A stretch of DNA of 31,846 nucleotides from a bacterium (GTDB lineage Bacteria > Dependentiae > Babeliae > Babeliales > RVW-14): positions 1-31,846 of the forward strand of contig RGUK01000009.1 in the NCBI GenBank assembly GCA_010027825.1, read 5' to 3'. The notes beneath the pieces are model-generated. The model had not been told where the DNA came from. It was given only the letters and a program-made list of their open reading frames with translations, and searched no databases. Position numbers and translations under genes: made by a program. Shown piece by piece: positions 1 through 24,161 of the stretch (its first letter is position 1; each line of letters starts with the position of its first letter).

Positions 1-67
1 GACCCGCGATGCCGTCTGCCGGTATGGTAAGTCAGCGGTCGCGGGCCGCTGATCGCTGGCGTTATGC
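1..67 (+). repeat. attC-like site, copy 1 (left part cut by window edge)
   Basis: Positions 1-54 repeat positions 406-459 with one mismatch. The copy ends in an R'-like box GTTATGC (61-67), the exact reverse complement of GCATAAC at 385-391. The L'-like arm at 39-56 reads TCGCGGGCCGCTGATCGC. Its reverse complement matches the L'' arm of copy 2 except for two extra bases there. This layout (R'', L'', spacer, L', R', with extrahelical bases) is that of integron attC sites. The assignment is inference from symmetry; no integron integrase is in the window. Confidence 0.5.
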
Positions 68-15428: not shown

Positions 15429-16358
15429 TTATTTAACGGCCATATAATCTAAATAGGCCGATATTTCTGGTTGTGATTTGAAAAATATGTCCGGCGCAAA
15501 CAAACTATCTTTTTTGCCTTTTCTAGTATCCAACGCGGCAAGCCAGTTGTGGCGCAAATACCGCACAAATGCTTGCGACGCGCGAAGATCGCCTTTTGAA
15601 CCGCCGCCAGCCGCAGCGTAAATGCGGTACAAAAAATTGTTCGGCTGCGATACATCTACGTCGGCTGGGTTTGCTGTTTTCCAACAACTCAGCACAGTCG
15701 CGCAGCGCAGCTCCCGCGGCCGGCAAATTATACGCTTTTTGTCGGAAACGGATTGCTGTGTTTTTGGTGACAATCCGAGATACAGCTCAAGCTTTGACGA
15801 CCGCTCAGGGCGGCGCAAGTCCACAAACCAGCGCGGGTCCAGAATCGAGACAAGCAGTCCGATGGTTGCCGCTTCTGACAACGTATGAATGAACTTTAAA
15901 GCTTTACGCGCTGGATGAAACTGATAGTAGCGCAACACCGACGCGTCGATAACGGCGTTGTTTTTTTGCCAACTATTAGCCATAGCGTAAGTAGAATGAT
16001 CCATCAACGACATATCGTGCCAACCGCCGCACGACGGCGCAGATTGAATCGTGCGCATTTTTAACAACACAAGTTTTGGATTATTAAACTCTTCGTTAGT
16101 TATGTATTGCGGGCCTGCAAGTTGCACAACTTGCAATTCGCCGCGATATTTGCGCATAAATAGTTCAGAGATAAGCTCGGCGTTATTACGGCAACCAATT
16201 AGCCGAACGCACAAGCTCATGCCGGAGATTATTGGCGACAGCAAAAATTCTTCTACTGTCTTGCCTGAGTCAATAGGCACGCCAATTCCTTTGACGTACC
16301 AGACTCGATCGTTGTCCGCAACGTGCAACTTAATCGACAACTCGTCACGATTGGCCAT
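15429..16358 (-). CDS. Hypothetical protein in recombination operon
   Basis: 309 aa from the ATG at 16358, which has GGAG at a good distance; longer in-frame versions overlap the SbcC gene further and lack such a site. No family is recognised. It contains a strand-rich first half (MANRDELSIKLHVADNDRVWYV), a Trp/His patch (PSCGGWHDMSLMDHSTYAM), a helical middle, and a charged end (LDTRKGKKDSLFAPDIFF). It lies between sbcC-like and uvsW-like genes and overlaps the former by 14 bases. A role in recombination or replication is inferred from position only. Confidence 0.6.
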   Translation of the reverse strand: MANRDELSIKLHVADNDRVWYVKGIGVPIDSGKTVEEFLLSPIISGMSLCVRLIGCRNNAELISELFMRKYRGELQVVQLAGPQYITNEEFNNPKLVLLKMRTIQSAPSCGGWHDMSLMDHSTYAMANSWQKNNAVIDASVLRYYQFHPARKALKFIHTLSEAATIGLLVSILDPRWFVDLRRPERSSKLELYLGLSPKTQQSVSDKKRIICRPRELRCATVLSCWKTANPADVDVSQPNNFLYRIYAAAGGGSKGDLRASQAFVRYLRHNWLAALDTRKGKKDSLFAPDIFFKSQPEISAYLDYMAVK

Positions 16359-18504
16359 GGCGCATCTCCGGCGGTTCAAGTTCGATAGCCGACTCAAACA
16401 AATGCGCCATACTCGACGCATGTGTAACCAACAAACACTGCAGCCCCTTGGCCGTAGATAGCGTGCGCAGTTTGTCTAATACGGGCGCCAATGCACGAAT
16501 TCTTGCTGCGTCCAGAGCAGCTGTTGGCTCGTCCAGCGCCAGCAGACCAATCTCTTCAGCAAACATGGCGTTAACGGCCACGCGAAAAGCCAACGCTAAC
16601 ACCGTTTTTTGCCCGATCGACAACCGTTGCGCAACTTGTTTACGGCCGTCAAAAAATTCGGCAATAAAAGCCGGCGCGCCATCGCTGGGCACGCGAATCA
16701 CAAAATTTACAGCAAATAATTCCAGCAGCTCGTTAATTGCTGTTTCGAGTTTCTGCAGATTACGCTGCGCAACAATTCTCGGCGCGTTCTTAAGCGCAGC
16801 CCGGACACGATCGGCTACGTTAACCCAGTCCCGAAGGCGGCTTGCCGTAATTTCTTGCTGACGCACTTCAGCGTACTGTTCTCGCACACGACGTAATTCG
16901 AAATCTAGTTCTGTTTTTTGCTGAGTTAACGTTTGACGCGCCGAATACTTTGCCTGCAATTGCTCCAGTTGTTTTTCTGCCGCGTTCGCCTGCTCGACAG
17001 CAATTTTATTGTCAGCTATTTCCGCCTGCAGAGTTTTTTGCCGTTGATCTAATTCAGTTTTGGCCGCAGAAATTGCCGCCACTTTTTCATTTGCTTTTCG
17101 AAGAATTGGCTCAATTTCTTTTTTAACTCGTTGGAACTCGGCATAGTCGTTGACGGTTCGCTGTAATTCCGTTTCACTCACGTCTGGCGGGGCTACGGCC
17201 ACAAGCTTTGCCGCTGCGTCTTCTAACTGTTTGGCCCGGGCGGCGAGCGTGCTGTCTTTACGCTCCCAATCAATGCGCCTAGCGACCTGATCGGCCAACG
17301 CTTTAGCCGCCGCTTCTTGATTTACCAACTGCGCAGACAAATCAGGAATAATTACATTTTGCGTGTTTTCCAGCTGCGGCTGAAGATCCGTTGTTGGGGT
17401 ATGGCAGGTTGGACAATGCGCAACACCAGCCGCTGTAAAAGTGGCAACAAAATTTTCCGCGTCTTTCAACTGCTTTTTAATATCTGCAACTTCTGCCGCA
17501 ACTTTGGCGATTGCGCTGTCATCGACTTTCAAAGGTTGATTTGCAGAATTTTGCAGCCGCTGAGCGTTGAGTTCGTCCCAATTAGCCTGCAACTCTTGCC
17601 GTGCTGTTTCTACACTTTTGTAACTATGCCAACGCCCCAAAGCCGTACGCGCCCGGGCCTGCGAATCTTCCTGCTCTGCCGTTACATTTACCAACGCAGC
17701 GTAATTATCGGCGTGTTCTTTTTGTTCCGCAGTTGCTGCCAATAGCCGGGCGCCGTAGTCATCAATTTGCCCTTGCAGCGTTTCTAGTTCTGTTTGCGCC
17801 CGTTGCTGCCGCTGCCACGCGCTTAATGTGTCTTGCGCTAACTTCTGCTCGGCAAGAAAAGATTCGAATGACGGCAACAAATCAATTTGCGCAGTTAACT
17901 TCTGCAGCTTATCAGTTAACTCTTTACCTTGCGCGGCCAGTTGATCAGTTGTTTGCACGATCTCGGGTATAACCAGTTTGCCCAGATTTTTGCCGACGAC
18001 TTCTTGGCATTTATCAGCTTTGGCTGTATTGAACAAACGCTGAAAAAACTTATCAGTTTCTGTCTGATTGTCGTCAATAAACGAAAAGATTTCCGTTTGG
18101 CCGACAATAATAAAGCGACTAATAAACTTTGCGTCTACGCCAAGAATCTTTTCGATACCACTCGTGACAGCTTTGTCGCCACGCGCGACCTCTGTACCGT
18201 CGACAACCAACGTGGATTGTTCTTTTTCCGGCAACAAATGCCGGCGCACAACGGCTACGTGCCCGTTATGCTCAAACTCTAAAGTAACATTCGCCGGCTC
18301 CCCTTCTTTAGCGTACTGACTAATGTTGTCAGTTTTTACGCCAAAATTGGGATTCTCGCCGGTTAACGCCCAGCGAATAGCGCCAAACAGGCTACTTTTA
18401 CCGGAACCGTTTTCGCCAAGAATGGCCACCAAACCGCGAGTAAATTCACACACTCGATGACGATGGTGCACCCAATTCCTGACTTCCAACTTCAATAACT
18501 GCAT
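16345..18504 (-). CDS. sbcC: SbcC/Rad50-type SMC ATPase (T4 gp46-like)
   Basis: 719 aa from the ATG at 18504 (AAAGGA about 8 bases upstream); an ATG at 18513 is also in frame but sits directly on that site. Numbering here is from 18513. Walker A is GENGSGKSS (33-41). A long heptad-rich coiled coil (about 170-600) is broken near residue 367 by CPTC, the zinc hook joining two Rad50 arms. The C-terminal lobe has the signature RLSIGQKTVLALAF, Walker B LLALDEPTAALD and a switch VTHASS. With SbcD it forms the Mre11-Rad50 complex that processes DNA ends; T4 gp46/47 is essential for recombination-dependent replication. The coiled coil is short compared with E. coli SbcC, as in phages. It overlaps sbcD by about 59 bases. 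Confidence 0.92.
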   Translation of the reverse strand: MQLLKLEVRNWVHHRHRVCEFTRGLVAILGENGSGKSSLFGAIRWALTGENPNFGVKTDNISQYAKEGEPANVTLEFEHNGHVAVVRRHLLPEKEQSTLVVDGTEVARGDKAVTSGIEKILGVDAKFISRFIIVGQTEIFSFIDDNQTETDKFFQRLFNTAKADKCQEVVGKNLGKLVIPEIVQTTDQLAAQGKELTDKLQKLTAQIDLLPSFESFLAEQKLAQDTLSAWQRQQRAQTELETLQGQIDDYGARLLAATAEQKEHADNYAALVNVTAEQEDSQARARTALGRWHSYKSVETARQELQANWDELNAQRLQNSANQPLKVDDSAIAKVAAEVADIKKQLKDAENFVATFTAAGVAHCPTCHTPTTDLQPQLENTQNVIIPDLSAQLVNQEAAAKALADQVARRIDWERKDSTLAARAKQLEDAAAKLVAVAPPDVSETELQRTVNDYAEFQRVKKEIEPILRKANEKVAAISAAKTELDQRQKTLQAEIADNKIAVEQANAAEKQLEQLQAKYSARQTLTQQKTELDFELRRVREQYAEVRQQEITASRLRDWVNVADRVRAALKNAPRIVAQRNLQKLETAINELLELFAVNFVIRVPSDGAPAFIAEFFDGRKQVAQRLSIGQKTVLALAFRVAVNAMFAEEIGLLALDEPTAALDAARIRALAPVLDKLRTLSTAKGLQCLLVTHASSMAHLFESAIELEPPEMRHGQS

Positions 18505-19624
18505 TAGCGCCATCCTTTATGAACTTGGAAAATTGTGCGTCGAGCGCTTTGACAGGATCCTCTGCCGCCAACAAACCGACGGCAATTCCATACTCGACAG
18601 AATTTTCAGGCAGCAACTCCGCTAAAACAGATAGCAAGTCATTGCGCCCAGATTTACGATCAGTCACCTGGTTGGCCGTGTCGCGGTCGTTGATTACGTC
18701 ACAAAACACATGCGCAGAATCGCCTATGGCAGTGATTAGCCGTAAATAGGCGTCGGGCAGTTGTTTGTCGAATTTAATCCGAATCAGCGGTTTGTTTATT
18801 TCTGCCGGCAGCTCACCATCTAGTTTTTTTATATCTGCGATCAACTTGCCCGCGCAGAGTTCGTCCAGCGTATCGAGATCTCTTACAACGTAGTAAGCAA
18901 ACCGACGTGTTTTTAACTGCACCGGCTGGAAAACGAGTTTGCGCGAATTGTTTTCCACGCCAATCACAAAAAAGTATTTCTCCGGCGTTTCTCCGATGTC
19001 TTGCATAGCTGTCGAGCCGGGCGAAAGCATTTGAACTGGTTTACCCTGTGCGTTAACGCCCTCGACAGTTTTTGTTACGTGAAAATCGCCGGCTAGCACC
19101 GTTTGCACATGATGCACGTCGGACAGCTCACATTCTGTCCGCCCCAAAGTGCCCATGAAGTCTTTCCAAACCTGATGGGTAATCAAGATGTCAGTGTCTG
19201 CTGGTACTTGCTGTAACGCGGCTTGAATTTCACCGCGCGGCAGCCAATCCAACCCCCAGACGCCAATACACGCGTCGCCGAACTGCACACCGGTGTCATG
19301 CAGATGAATCGGCCACGGATGCACGCTCAACCACGGCGCATTTCGGTCGTATTCGTGGTTGCCTTGAATGTAATACGCCCGCACATTTTTTTGCTGCAGC
19401 CGGGACAAACCCTCGCACAACTTAGCAATAGGCCGCGCAAGATTTTGTTTCTTTTCCAGAATGTCGCCGCCCATGATCAGCGGCAAGTTCTGCGCAATAC
19501 AGTAGTCAATAATTTGTTGAAAACTGTAATACGCGTCGCCATAAATCCCCGGCCGTGTTGACCATGCGCCGTCCTCCAAATGCAGGTCAGCGCAGAATAC
19601 AAACAGTGGCGTAACCCCATTCAC
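18446..19624 (-). CDS. sbcD: SbcD/Mre11-type nuclease (T4 gp47-like)
   Basis: 392 aa, GTG start with AAAGGG 8 bases upstream. All metallophosphoesterase motifs are present in order: DLH (D13, H15), GGDI (D54), GNHE (N89, H90), ITHQ (H150) and GDFH (D180, H182). This is the two-metal site of Mre11 family exo/endonucleases. The C-terminal part (about 230-392) would hold the capping and Rad50-binding regions. The gene is immediately upstream of sbcC with an unusually long overlap, which implies coupled translation and complex formation. Confidence 0.93.
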   Translation of the reverse strand: MNGVTPLFVFCADLHLEDGAWSTRPGIYGDAYYSFQQIIDYCIAQNLPLIMGGDILEKKQNLARPIAKLCEGLSRLQQKNVRAYYIQGNHEYDRNAPWLSVHPWPIHLHDTGVQFGDACIGVWGLDWLPRGEIQAALQQVPADTDILITHQVWKDFMGTLGRTECELSDVHHVQTVLAGDFHVTKTVEGVNAQGKPVQMLSPGSTAMQDIGETPEKYFFVIGVENNSRKLVFQPVQLKTRRFAYYVVRDLDTLDELCAGKLIADIKKLDGELPAEINKPLIRIKFDKQLPDAYLRLITAIGDSAHVFCDVINDRDTANQVTDRKSGRNDLLSVLAELLPENSVEYGIAVGLLAAEDPVKALDAQFSKFIKDGANAVIEVGSQELGAPSSSSV

Positions 19625-20236: not shown

Positions 20237-20308
20237 CGATATGTTTCTCCGTACGCTGGCGGGCTGCTGCTTTAATTTTAGCAGTAACGCCGACGCAGGG
20301 CAGCTGAA

Positions 20309-20379
20309 TTCGGGGGCTAGGATTCGAACCCAGACAAAGGGAACCAAAATCCCTTGTGCTACCGTTACACCACCCCCGA
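20309..20379 (-). tRNA. tRNA-Gln (UUG)
   Basis: 71 nt. The acceptor stem TCGGGGG pairs with CCCCCGA. The anticodon arm is AGGGA-TTTTGGT-TCCCT with anticodon TTG (reads CAA). The T arm is CTGGG-TTCGAAT-CCTAG, with one G-T pair. The D arm is GTG...CAC with a GG in the loop. The discriminator is A and no CCA is encoded. All tRNA landmarks are present, so it should be functional. A single tRNA inside an early operon is common in larger phages. Confidence 0.95.
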
Positions 20380-20540
20380 ACGCGCGGCAAATCTTTTGCT
20401 TACGACTTCTAACGCCCGCCAGGAATCAACATCTTGTTAAGCGGCGTTAGCCTCGTTGTTACAAACCCACAAACGACTGGGGTGCCGAGCGGTTGTTGCG
20501 TGACTTAATTACCGCTAGAGACGTCGGCCCGCCTGGTATA
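20380..20540. other. Intergenic spacer 5' of the tRNA
   Basis: A 161-bp gap between the stop of the 89-aa gene and the tRNA. It contains one 8-bp inverted repeat CTAACGCC/GGCGTTAG (about 20409-20451) with a long loop. I see no second tRNA: there is no T-arm or anticodon-arm pattern on either strand. It may hold a promoter for the tRNA and replication operon, but no clear -35/-10 pair is visible. Confidence 0.4.
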
Positions 20541-20810
20541 TTAGCTTCGTTTTTTTCTTTGCGCCGCCGTAAACCCTACAAACCTGCCACCGTTTTTTGT
20601 AAACAACAAGCCAGGTTTACCGCCACATTTTTTTGCAGCAAATTTGGCTACCCGCATCAAATCGTTGTAAATGATTTCGCCGGGCCGGCCGTAACGCCGC
20701 AAAAATTTACGAACAGGCAAAAACGCATCGTCAGCGCTCGGCCCGTCGGCTTCAAATGCTTTGTTTTTGTCATTAATAAATCCTCCAAAATCGAAATTGC
20801 CGGGTTTCAT
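20541..20810 (-). CDS. Small basic hypothetical protein
   Basis: 89 aa, unrecognised, starting 3 bases after the stop of the gene upstream. It has a charged N-terminus (NDKNKAFEADGPSADD), an Arg/Lys-rich centre (RKFLRRYGRPGE, KFAAKKCGGKPG) and a basic end (AAQRKKRS). Such composition suggests nucleic-acid contact, but no motif supports a specific function. The tight spacing argues that it is a real cotranslated gene. Confidence 0.55.
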   Translation of the reverse strand: MKPGNFDFGGFINDKNKAFEADGPSADDAFLPVRKFLRRYGRPGEIIYNDLMRVAKFAAKKCGGKPGLLFTKNGGRFVGFTAAQRKKRS

Positions 20811-20813
20811 GTT

Positions 20814-21920
20814 TTAAACTTTGAGCACAATCAGAGCATTTTGTCTAGGGAAAAAGTAAAATCCGCGAACAGTGTCATACCTCGGCAAATCTCTGCGCAT
20901 CAGCACTCGGTCGTGCTGCGCGTTTGCCGATGTACGTACAAGCTTACTAACGACGTAAGCGCCAGCTGCATCCACTTGCATGTCTAATACAACGAATGTT
21001 TCTGGCAACGCGGAAACAGGAAATCGAACCGACGCGCCAACTGGCCCTGTCGGCCCGCTCAATGTACCGTGTGCGGCCGACATGTCAATCACCTTCAACA
21101 ACGGTTGAAGCGCGGCCAGCTGCGCGTCAACTTTGTGAACAGGCGCCGTAAAATTGCCCAGAATACCGGCGGCAATCGCGGCCGCATTTTCGGCGGTAAT
21201 TAATCCGCTGTCGGCCAATTCCGGAGCGCCGAGCACAGCCAAAACCAACAACACAACCGGCACGTTAGTATACGTATCTTCGTCGATTAATTTGGATGAA
21301 ATAGCTGACGCTGAAACGCATAAGCACTCACCCGTTTCAGTCATGGCGATAAATTCGTCGGGGGCCGCGCCGGGTACAACCAAACTCAGCCGATCATCTC
21401 CGAGCGAACTTTTGCAATAGGCCAACGAAAATCCAAGCCGGCTGGCCAATGCCACAGAAAACTTCGCCGGATTGAATACGCGCCGCATAAGCGGATGGCT
21501 GTAGATCTCCGGCTGTTCAGCCACCGAGGGCGGCGCTAAGTCAGCATTGGCCGACAGTTCTTGGGCGATCGCGTGCAGCAGCTCAGGAGTAAGTTCGTCT
21601 ACCAGCACGCCATCAGTCTCAAGGACTTCTGCAAATAGCGCGATAGCCTCCTGCGCCACATCTACGGATGACTGTGCCAACGAGTCAGATTCAGATTCAA
21701 ACGACACGCCGGCATATTGCCACGGAAGATCGGCAACTCCGGCAATAAAGTTTGCAACCGGAATTAATGATTGATCGTTGTTGAAAGTTTTTAGTTTTCG
21801 AATTGCGTCTAAAAGCGCGCAGCACGCAGAAAATCCGGCCGGCGACTTTGAAGGATTAACCTTCCCAAAAAACGCTCGAATTTTATCCGCGAGTGTTGGC
21901 TTGTGTTTTGCTGTAGTCAT
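20814..21920 (-). CDS. Hypothetical protein, possible partner of the HTH-DHS fusion
   Basis: 368 aa, unrecognised. It starts directly at the stop of the HTH-DHS fusion gene (21921). Residues 1-160 are mostly helical and acidic. A central hydrophobic strand-helix block (VPVVLLVLAVLGAPELADSGL) is followed by Ala-rich helices, then a GPTGPVG turn and a C-terminal beta-rich part (YFFPRQNALIVLKV). The hydrophobic block is too broken by charged residues for a clear membrane segment. There are no catalytic motifs. Immediate adjacency suggests it may act with the fusion protein; that is inference. Confidence 0.6.
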   Translation of the reverse strand: MTTAKHKPTLADKIRAFFGKVNPSKSPAGFSACCALLDAIRKLKTFNNDQSLIPVANFIAGVADLPWQYAGVSFESESDSLAQSSVDVAQEAIALFAEVLETDGVLVDELTPELLHAIAQELSANADLAPPSVAEQPEIYSHPLMRRVFNPAKFSVALASRLGFSLAYCKSSLGDDRLSLVVPGAAPDEFIAMTETGECLCVSASAISSKLIDEDTYTNVPVVLLVLAVLGAPELADSGLITAENAAAIAAGILGNFTAPVHKVDAQLAALQPLLKVIDMSAAHGTLSGPTGPVGASVRFPVSALPETFVVLDMQVDAAGAYVVSKLVRTSANAQHDRVLMRRDLPRYDTVRGFYFFPRQNALIVLKV

Positions 21921-23099
21921 TTATTTTGCTTTGTCAAAAACCACGACGCAGCGCTGCAGCAAGGTTGCCGCCTGCGTCGCAATATGTCCGTGCACAGAAT
22001 GAAATTGTCCGCCCAACGCTGCAATCTGAGCTTTTGCGTTTCTCGGCGCCGGCGCGTCGTCGAGGAGTATGAACGAAAACGCGTCGTATTTTTTTTCCGG
22101 CAGCCCAGTGCGCTGCGCGATTGTCATAGCGCGGGCAAACAAATTCAAAAACCGCGGCCCAGAGCCCAAAGCTATGCAGACGCCGCCCGGCTCACCAAAA
22201 AACAACCGCAGCTGTTCCGCAAACACCAATAAATCGATATACGCGGCCGCGCCAATACTCGCGCCAGATTCTGCGCCGTGTAACCCGGGCCAATAATGAT
22301 CCAAGATTTCGCCGAACTCGGGATGCACTGTAAACGGTATTCCGCGCTGCTTCGCCGCCATCACAATGCTTTCCGGCAACGCTCCGCCCCATTGCGCCAC
22401 AGCTTCGCCCATGCCGATGCCGACGTTTGCGCCAATTTTTGCCAGTTGCGCTTTATTACGCGTGGGTTTAGACGGAGCGTCCAGTTCGACAGCCGCGGCT
22501 GTCAGCCCAACACCGGTTACATAATTATGCGCAATTAAATTGTTGATAATTACGCGCGCGCCGGATTCCAACGCAGACTCTGCCGCCAGCAAATACACCG
22601 GCTTTGCCGAGGTGCGTGCACCTATAATCGCTCGGGCTGCGCGCTTAATCGACTTTTTGGCGGCAACCGGAGGAGGCGGGGGCGGCAATTCCGCAGGTCT
22701 TTTAGGCGCAACGCCAACGTAGCTTTCCACTGACAGCAAAGAAAAAGAAGTCTCTAAAACCTTAGGCAGCGACAACGGCGCAATGTCGTCCGGCAAATCC
22801 GCCGACAACATCGGGCCGATGCCGCACAATAGCCACTCCGCGCGCACATTTGTGAACATGATTATTTGCGCTAGAAACTTAAGACTAACGCGCGTCGCAA
22901 ATCGTAGGGCGCGAATGACATGGCCGGTTTCCATGCCAATCGTGGAAGAAAAAGCGGAAAGGTCGCCGCCAAACAAGTAATCACAAACGTATGCAACCCG
23001 CTGCTTAATGACGTCCGGGTTCGTCAGCATCCGGCGCGACTTGCGATTCCGGCGCAACACATGCGCCCGGCGCATCACACTCAATTTTGTTTGGCGCAT
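21921..23099 (-). CDS. XRE-type HTH fused to deoxyhypusine-synthase-like domain
   Basis: 392 aa. GGAG 7 bases before the ATG supports this start even though it lies 95 bases inside the upstream gene. After a basic leader, residues about 28-97 look like a phage-repressor HTH. They contain LSAFSSTIGMETGHVIRALR and end VRAEWLLCGIGPML, the usual exit of CI/XRE domains (compare EWLLTGEGPM). A Pro-rich linker (PPPPPP, 139-144) follows. Residues about 168-392 match from memory the bacterial deoxyhypusine-synthase-like family: VGIGMGEAVAQW, RGIPFTVHPEFG, HGAESGASIGAAAY and GGVCIALGSGPRFLNLF. True DHS transfers aminobutyl from spermidine to eIF5A; bacterial relatives make or modify polyamines. The catalytic Lys segment (WGK) of eukaryotic DHS is not seen. 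The role is unknown. Confidence 0.7.
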   Translation of the reverse strand: MRQTKLSVMRRAHVLRRNRKSRRMLTNPDVIKQRVAYVCDYLFGGDLSAFSSTIGMETGHVIRALRFATRVSLKFLAQIIMFTNVRAEWLLCGIGPMLSADLPDDIAPLSLPKVLETSFSLLSVESYVGVAPKRPAELPPPPPPVAAKKSIKRAARAIIGARTSAKPVYLLAAESALESGARVIINNLIAHNYVTGVGLTAAAVELDAPSKPTRNKAQLAKIGANVGIGMGEAVAQWGGALPESIVMAAKQRGIPFTVHPEFGEILDHYWPGLHGAESGASIGAAAYIDLLVFAEQLRLFFGEPGGVCIALGSGPRFLNLFARAMTIAQRTGLPEKKYDAFSFILLDDAPAPRNAKAQIAALGGQFHSVHGHIATQAATLLQRCVVVFDKAK

Positions 23100-24129
23100 C
23101 TTTCTTCTCCACGCTTGGTTTGCGCATTGTACGCAATAACCCGCGGCAAGTTTTTAAGAACAAGCCAGAGCCCCGAAATAGTTTAATTCCCGCCGCGGCA
23201 TGTAGATAAGCCGCAACTAATTCTGGCGGAGCTATCAGCAAACTTTTGTGATACCGACAGAACTCGCCAAACACGGGATAAAACGCGTCATCAAATTCTT
23301 CGCCCTTCGGGGCGGCCACGAGCGGCAAACGCTCGTTATAAACAACCGCCGCATTTGGCAACGTCACGACAGGCAATTTTTTAAGATTGGCCCGGCACAA
23401 TAAAAATTGACGGGTTTCTACAAACCAACCGTCGATTTGCGGGTCAACCGTCACCCGCCACATTGAACCTATCGTGTGCCGCGCGACTCGTTTGCTGCGC
23501 ACTAAAGCATCGTAATGCGCTTTATGCTGCCGTAGCGCAAATTTTAAAGGCCGAGCTAATTCTGCTATTTTTTCTTGGTCGCATCCGAGGGCGGCATTGA
23601 AGCCAATAGCAGGAACAAATTCCCGAAGAACACGACATACGACCATAAAAGAATCGCAAGAAACATTTTTTTTCGCCCAAATATTGACGGTGTGTTTTAC
23701 AAGCCGGTATTGGGCCGCGCTAATACGAGCTATACAAAACGGACAAATTCGCGTGCGCCAACACGGACGAACTTGATAATTGATCGACTGCCCGCTGGAT
23801 TTTACATAGTACAAATACGTCGGCCGGCAACACAACGCGCGCCTATACGACAAAGCAAACCGCTTTAATTCAAACAGCGGGCTGGAAGGATCTACCTCGG
23901 GCGAACTGCTGAGCCGCCAAAGTTGCCGCGACAGCAACTCTTTAAGCCGCCGAGACCATAAACGCCGAAACGTGTTGGTCCGGCGAACGACGCGGCGCCC
24001 AGTTTTTAAATACAAGCCCAGCGTAAATTCAGCGGCGAAAAACTGACTTTTGGTTTTGCCTGTTTTTAGAACAAACCAACGCGGCAATTTGAATTTATTG
24101 ACAAACTGAATAAAGTCGAAGTCTTCCAT
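23005..24129 (-). CDS. CxxC protein, remotely Rep-like
   Basis: 374 aa from the ATG at 24129; a GTG at 24150 lies in the loop of a terminator. Neither start has a Shine-Dalgarno. It is Arg/Lys-rich in the first 100 residues. RPCWRTRICPFCIAR (about 128-142) recalls the CxxC element before the HUH domain of rolling-circle replication proteins. IGSMWRVTVDPQIDGWFVE (about 245) sits where those proteins have the HxH motif, but the His residues are missing. So it may be a degenerate Rep relative or an unrelated zinc protein. The C-terminal 60 residues are disordered and charged. The 3' end overlaps the HTH-DHS gene by 95 bases. Confidence 0.5.
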   Translation of the reverse strand: MEDFDFIQFVNKFKLPRWFVLKTGKTKSQFFAAEFTLGLYLKTGRRVVRRTNTFRRLWSRRLKELLSRQLWRLSSSPEVDPSSPLFELKRFALSYRRALCCRPTYLYYVKSSGQSINYQVRPCWRTRICPFCIARISAAQYRLVKHTVNIWAKKNVSCDSFMVVCRVLREFVPAIGFNAALGCDQEKIAELARPLKFALRQHKAHYDALVRSKRVARHTIGSMWRVTVDPQIDGWFVETRQFLLCRANLKKLPVVTLPNAAVVYNERLPLVAAPKGEEFDDAFYPVFGEFCRYHKSLLIAPPELVAAYLHAAAGIKLFRGSGLFLKTCRGLLRTMRKPSVEKKDAPNKIECDAPGACVAPESQVAPDADEPGRH

Positions 24130-24161
24130 AAAAAAGCAGCCGCGATACACACCGCGGCTGC
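24130..24161 (-). terminator. Intrinsic terminator after the GC-rich gene
   Basis: A 9-bp perfect stem GCAGCCGCG/CGCGGCTGC (24136-24144 and 24153-24161) with an 8-base loop is followed on the minus strand by six T (24135-24130). It lies 41 bases after the stop at 24203. It is the clearest terminator inside the window. It abuts the next ATG at 24129, so genes further down need read-through, antitermination or their own promoter. Confidence 0.88.

Follow-up and report, generated by a model that had tools for sequence, protein, structure and literature searches.

A fusion gene in a phage replication module

The window, our term for the whole 31,846-nucleotide stretch analyzed, contains a gene that joins a helix-turn-helix (HTH) region to a domain with the deoxyhypusine synthase (DHS)/ArgZ-C fold (Table 1). 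A GGAG precedes its ATG at 23099, while the ATG at 23030, used as the start of the 369-residue database version of the protein (P0001), has no GGAG-type site before it. Single residues (E209, G240, H245, G260, Y264, D266, H236, A150, and S258) are cited below in P0001 numbering, which is the 392-residue numbering minus 23.

Table 1. Features of the fusion gene and its surroundings (positions in the window)
Feature	Position	Strand	Remark
Family-A DNA polymerase, 1048 aa	6435-9581	-	PF00476, E 2.2e-44
SbcC-like subunit	16345-18513	-	replication/recombination module
SbcD-like nuclease subunit	18446-19624	-	syntenic anchor for presence/absence survey
tRNA-Gln (TTG), single	20308-20380	-	between 89-aa ORF and 236-aa ORF
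Downstream 89-aa ORF	20541-20810	-	14/16 related loci
Downstream neighbor, 368-aa ORF, no known family	20814-21920	-	14/16 related loci
HTH-GSU2086-type-domain fusion gene, 392 aa	21921-23099	-	ORF confirmed
GSU2086-type domain, DHS/ArgZ-C fold, residues 143-392	21924-22673	-	
Most conserved segment, presumed pocket, residues 227-293	22221-22421	-	GIGMGEA ... PFTVHPEFGEILDHYWP ... HGAESGASIGAAAYIDLLVF
Variable linker with poly-Pro run, residues 97-142	22674-22811	-	
CI/434-type HTH, residues 28-96, five helices	22812-23018	-	ends EWLLCGIGPML
Recognition helix within the HTH, residues ~58-66		-	
Basic N-terminal tail, residues 1-27	23019-23099	-	family median net charge +6
Upstream neighbor, 381-aa ORF, no known family	23005-24150	-	16/16 related loci, CxxC-type motif

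The fusion gene is tightly packed between its neighbors. The 381-aa ORF overlaps it by 95 nucleotides, and the 368-aa ORF starts at the base directly after its stop. The latter had been proposed as a partner and is indeed a conserved neighbor. Neither a Pfam domain nor a telling name was found for 16 homologues of it. In one of the first 16 related loci (L002) the sequence ends inside the fusion gene. The 381-aa protein contains a CxxC-type stretch, CWRTRICPFC, reminiscent of Rep-like zinc motifs. Genes for SbcD, SbcC, a helicase, a DnaB-type helicase, a primase, a UvsX-like recombinase, and the family-A DNA polymerase lie on the same strand. The phage context expected from the original prediction is supported. 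A classical lysogeny repressor, for which an immunity region with a divergent cro-like gene would be expected, was considered and judged unlikely, because the gene sits within a replication module and the neighbors found are co-directional replication and recombination genes. The polymerase carries a uracil-DNA-glycosylase-superfamily domain in front (residues 116 to 266; PF03167, E 2.9e-15). Rfam at the gathering cut-off found only the tRNA, whose gene overlaps the listed start of the 236-aa ORF; that ORF is probably mis-started.

The two halves of the protein

By single-sequence search the window protein is nearly an orphan. It matched no Pfam family at an E value of ≤1, gave no tblastn match at ≤0.01 in 50,697 phage records and only chance-level matches in the PDB, and showed a weak match of its N-terminal half to a PHROG repressor family (E 0.0045). 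Viral scans with the single proteins, the fusion and its neighbor, found no relative, and with a relative (L003) as the query, nothing in the phage records matched at E ≤1 except a single annotated repressor, through its HTH part (E 0.3). A profile of the N-terminal half (19 rows, the P0018 row being full length) best matched the HTH transcriptional regulator 4ich in the PDB (E 5.4e-7), followed by 434 repressor (0.02 to 0.036) and HigA antitoxins (0.057 to 0.095). Among the best 50 of 458 matches to a library of predicted viral structures, those of high probability were mostly CI/XRE repressors with HTH-sized alignments, and the best repressor superpositions listed were at 1.8 to 2 Å; in the same 50 there was no convincing match to the C-terminal half and none at E ≤0.001. 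The N-terminal half thus has the five helices of an XRE/CI-type HTH, and shares with phage CI/434-type repressors both the fold and the EWLL.G.GPM end, whereas its C-terminal domain comes from another superfamily and its gene lies within a replication module.

Among 40 nonredundant members, variability peaks in the recognition helix (mean entropy of 2.51 bits versus 0.9 to 2.15 for the other helices), and the AEWLL.G.GPM end of the HTH hardly varies (entropy of 0.9). A variable recognition helix in a conserved core resembles repressors with diverged operators; the variability would also fit a loss of DNA binding. The tail in front of the HTH is basic, with a median net charge of +6 and a minimum of 0 in 33 tails, some of which may take in residues upstream of the true start. 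Three database proteins (P0004, P0014, and P0015) have predicted starts inside the HTH, which are either wrong starts or true HTH-less forms. Palindromes and repeats were examined as operator candidates. The region upstream of the 381-aa gene has no palindrome common to the window and 11 relatives, and the single inverted repeat upstream of that gene in the window is terminator-like.

The nearest family of the C-terminal domain is GSU2086, not DHS. The NCBIfam model NF052581 (GSU2086) matched P0001 with 70.1 bits (E 2.3e-19), far below its curated cut-off of 250 bits, and matched L003 with an E value of 8.6e-28, while hhalign aligned the whole C-terminal domain to GSU2086 over 251 columns (99.9, E 3e-33). 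By these comparisons the phage domain is a homologue of the GSU2086 family that falls outside its curated limits. In the best 80 of 219 GSU2086 loci (L025 to L104), the phage C-domain profile matched ORFs in all 80, whereas the HTH profile matched 0 of 2190 ORFs. The GSU2086 family and the phage domain have in common the motifs GxGxGEA, S, P.TVH..G....H, GAA.G..Y.D.L, and GV...G. The bacterial proteins fetched, in most cases of about 312 to 330 amino acids, lack the HTH of the fusion.

Matches of the two halves to CI-type repressors and to PF01916 (DS) had been named as support for the original prediction. The window protein showed no PF01916 match at E ≤1, relatives reached 14.7 to 14.8 bits against a cut-off of 27, and hhalign of the phage domain with this DHS/homospermidine-synthase-like family gave 60% over 98 columns. 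Likewise, for PF21570, the ArgZ-like C-terminal domain found in ArgZ/AgrE and the LOR/SDH (TIGR00300) ornithine cyclodeaminases, the best phage member (P0008) reached 16 bits against a cut-off of 27 and P0001 gave no match; the phage proteins also differ from those enzymes in having no dihydrolase or LOR/SDH N-terminal part. TIGR00300 is named NPN-dependent ornithine cyclodeaminase in NCBIfam, a naming that may serve only as a lead to the cofactor type; the literature searched held nothing joining NPN with ornithine cyclodeaminase. L003 also showed a weak match to PF24401 (iHD-CE; E 0.003), below the cut-off. The structural match of the C-terminal half to the DHS fold, part of the original prediction, was found, with family, profile, and fold evidence in agreement; the superpositions behind the assignment are loose, and beyond the first half of the domain phage residues are mapped to DHS by the order of secondary-structure elements. 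That the HTH or the DHS fold is not genuine, and the fusion is an artefact or chance, is highly improbable given this agreement, even though Pfam returned nothing for the window protein by itself and the best PDB matches of the A1 profile were not significant (4ich HTH, 0.091; Repressor protein CI 2fjr, 0.24; probable DHS 7cmc, 0.3).

Outside phages, GSU2086 (NF052581) is a widespread bacterial and archaeal branch of the DHS superfamily that often occurs in heptose-activation clusters. In 40 loci flanked on each side by about 6 kb of sequence, the neighbors included a CTP-transferase-like nucleotidyltransferase (27 loci), an HldE-type kinase/nucleotidyltransferase (27), a GmhA-type SIS isomerase (25), and a radical-SAM/SPASM protein (19); at least one of the four was present in 31 loci and none in 9. 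In Geobacter, according to PMC5585712, GSU2086 lies between hldE (GSU2085) and gmhA (GSU2087), genes affecting growth on electrodes, its electrode-growth score of -3.2 is similar to those of its neighbors (-3.1 and -3.7), and it is termed a hypothetical protein of a sugar biosynthesis operon.

Residues kept and lost in the C-terminal domain

An alignment of 40 phage with 77 bacterial and archaeal proteins separates a retained core from lost loops. The core motifs GxGxGE, P.TVH..G....H, and G..Y.D are present in the phage proteins, and E209, G240, H245, G260, Y264, and D266 each occur in all 40. In the bacterial and archaeal proteins G240, H245, G260, and D266 are found in 77/77, Y264 in 75/77, and E209 in 63/77. 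H236 is less constant among the phages (28/40), and P0001 differs in places from the family consensus, for example with A150 where the family has G and S258 where it has A. The segment spanning these motifs is presumed, from the fold, to form the pocket. Two loops of the bacterial and archaeal proteins, FGLWxETG (72/77) and RPxKT (77/77), occur in none of the phage proteins, where the two loops are about 20 residues shorter; the stretch from H245 to G260 is four residues longer than in the bacterial proteins. L015 (9965 to 11098) and P0018 retain more of a segment similar to the bacterial ALIGATTES (MFGGLASHS and LLGGLADS), and these two may represent intermediate stages at which the first loop was being lost.

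The retained residues and the lost loops bear on whether the C-terminal domain is a scaffold. A GSU2086-type domain that only pairs or tetramerizes the HTHs, with no ligand, would explain why both loops are gone from every phage protein, and would accord with the tetramer described for DHS in PMC7226451. A pure scaffold, however, would have no obvious need for the charged and polar E209, H245, D266, and Y264, which are kept throughout the phage proteins and are common to the bacterial family, and we regard this explanation as unlikely, while still counting it the main rival of a regulatory role.

The domain had also been suggested to be a polyamine enzyme, and this was not supported. The motif [SAGT][WFY]GK, presumably the one that holds the DHS catalytic lysine (Lys329 in human), was present in 9/9 PF01916 proteins fetched and in 0/40 phage C-domains; one phage protein has the pattern in its HTH. 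Because of its absence, DHS activity was rejected. The DHS catalytic residues named in PMC7226451 and PMC7581365 are Lys329, His288, Glu137, Asp316, Glu323, and Trp327. In six related loci dN/dS was 0.08 to 0.24 for the C-terminal domain and 0.05 to 0.28 for the HTH where computable, which suggests purifying selection on both domains. The values are rough, as many dS approached or exceeded 1 and others could not be computed. This selection and the strongly conserved core pocket are also what would be expected if the HTH brought to phage DNA a domain that still catalyzes a reaction, one new to the DHS/ArgZ-C superfamily. Set against such a tethered enzyme, next in rank after the scaffold and rather doubtful, are the loss of both GSU2086 loops and of the DHS lysine motif, and the known superfamily reactions have no obvious need for a location on DNA.

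Distribution and proposed role

Relatives were recovered by several routes. A protein search returned 10 proteins at E ≤0.01, including that of the window, a profile search returned 16 proteins, two of them full GSU2086 proteins, and a profile scan of IMG/VR returned 16 loci. A scan with the neighboring SbcD gene gave 50 loci, 40 at 51 to 69% SbcD identity and 10 at 27 to 33%. Among the 40 closer loci, 31 encode the C-terminal domain, and 30 of the 31 have the HTH in the same ORF, the predicted joining of both domains in one gene; in the remaining one (L135) the sequence begins inside the fusion gene. Seven of the nine closer loci without the domain have only 1.4 to 5.9 kb on that side, probably too short to reach the gene, and in one of these (L152) the 368-aa neighbor is already at the sequence edge. 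In L159 the frames are broken and only the HTH was detected. None of the 10 distant loci has the fusion. Both scans together gave 35 distinct contigs with the predicted two-domain order, some near-identical (e.g., L009, L010, and L013), the largest being 194 to 205 kb. Sub-cut-off matches to the tail-sheath family PF04984 in 4 of 10 records only suggest contractile tails as the virion type. No host or prophage was found, since none of 593 stretches fitting a pattern in species genomes encodes a relative.

In a sister phage (L154, 2588 to 4759), the 381-aa gene directly adjoins the 368-aa gene, with no fusion gene between them and with SbcD and SbcC kept; this is perhaps a natural deletion, and the gene is dispensable there, being absent with both neighbors present. 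The case bears on the idea that the HTH-like region serves in protein-protein contact or nonspecific DNA binding at the replication fork, not in transcription control. Such an adaptor would fit the nearby SbcCD, helicase, DnaB-type helicase, primase, and polymerase genes, the basic tail, and the failure to find an operator; that a phage keeping SbcD, SbcC, and both flanking genes lacks it, and that repressors are the best matches of the HTH, which retains their hallmark EWLL.G.GPM, makes it quite unlikely.

The simplest account, to which we give a probability of about one half, is a phage one-component regulator in which the C-terminal domain serves oligomerization and ligand sensing, because an HTH with a repressor hallmark is fused to an enzyme-fold domain that has kept its core residues and not its loops. 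By analogy with DHS, the C-terminal domain would oligomerize and so pair the HTHs on an operator. The ancestral pocket, kept while two conserved loops were lost, would still bind a metabolite or nucleotide-type cofactor but no longer carry out the ancestral chemistry, and ligand binding would alter DNA binding; the steps from retained pocket to ligand to changed DNA binding are our inference. From the position of the gene, the regulator would most likely time or tune transcription of the replication/recombination cluster. Candidate ligands include an activated-sugar intermediate and a nucleotide cofactor of the NAD or NPN type named for the superfamily. Counting against a regulator are the search that found no operator, the phage without the gene, the three predicted HTH-less proteins, and the NCBIfam score below the cut-off. 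A more specific scenario, which we consider improbable, is that phages captured a GSU2086-type protein of heptose activation, which then lost its catalytic loops and became fused to a repressor HTH. The replication/recombination cluster would in that case be expressed according to the level of an activated-heptose intermediate in the host or of the domain's nucleotide cofactor. A link to anti-phage defense, also raised originally, found nothing pointing to it, and a defense gene was rejected as a candidate after PADLOC gave no match at E ≤0.01 for five proteins.

Regulators that combine an HTH with a sensor domain derived from an enzyme are, as a general kind, already known; to our knowledge, the DHS/ArgZ-C superfamily is known for enzymes only. 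As predicted, no described system with this fusion was found in the literature searched (preprints were outside its scope), where relevant titles and abstract openings concern other subjects, digestion metagenomics among them, and the word deoxyhypusine is absent from the portions consulted of a jumbo-phage overview (PMC7824862). Nor is the fusion described in the 50,697 phage records or in the best 50 of 458 predicted viral structures. The large uncultured phage group that carries it is, for this gene, not represented in the named-phage collection searched. A stable, conserved fusion thus links a DNA-binding domain to an enzyme superfamily, with GSU2086 named as the nearest bacterial relative, and judging from its sequence it is probably a gene switch that senses a small molecule. 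It makes two questions jointly testable, namely, the ligand of the GSU2086 family and the signal to which these phages respond while they replicate.
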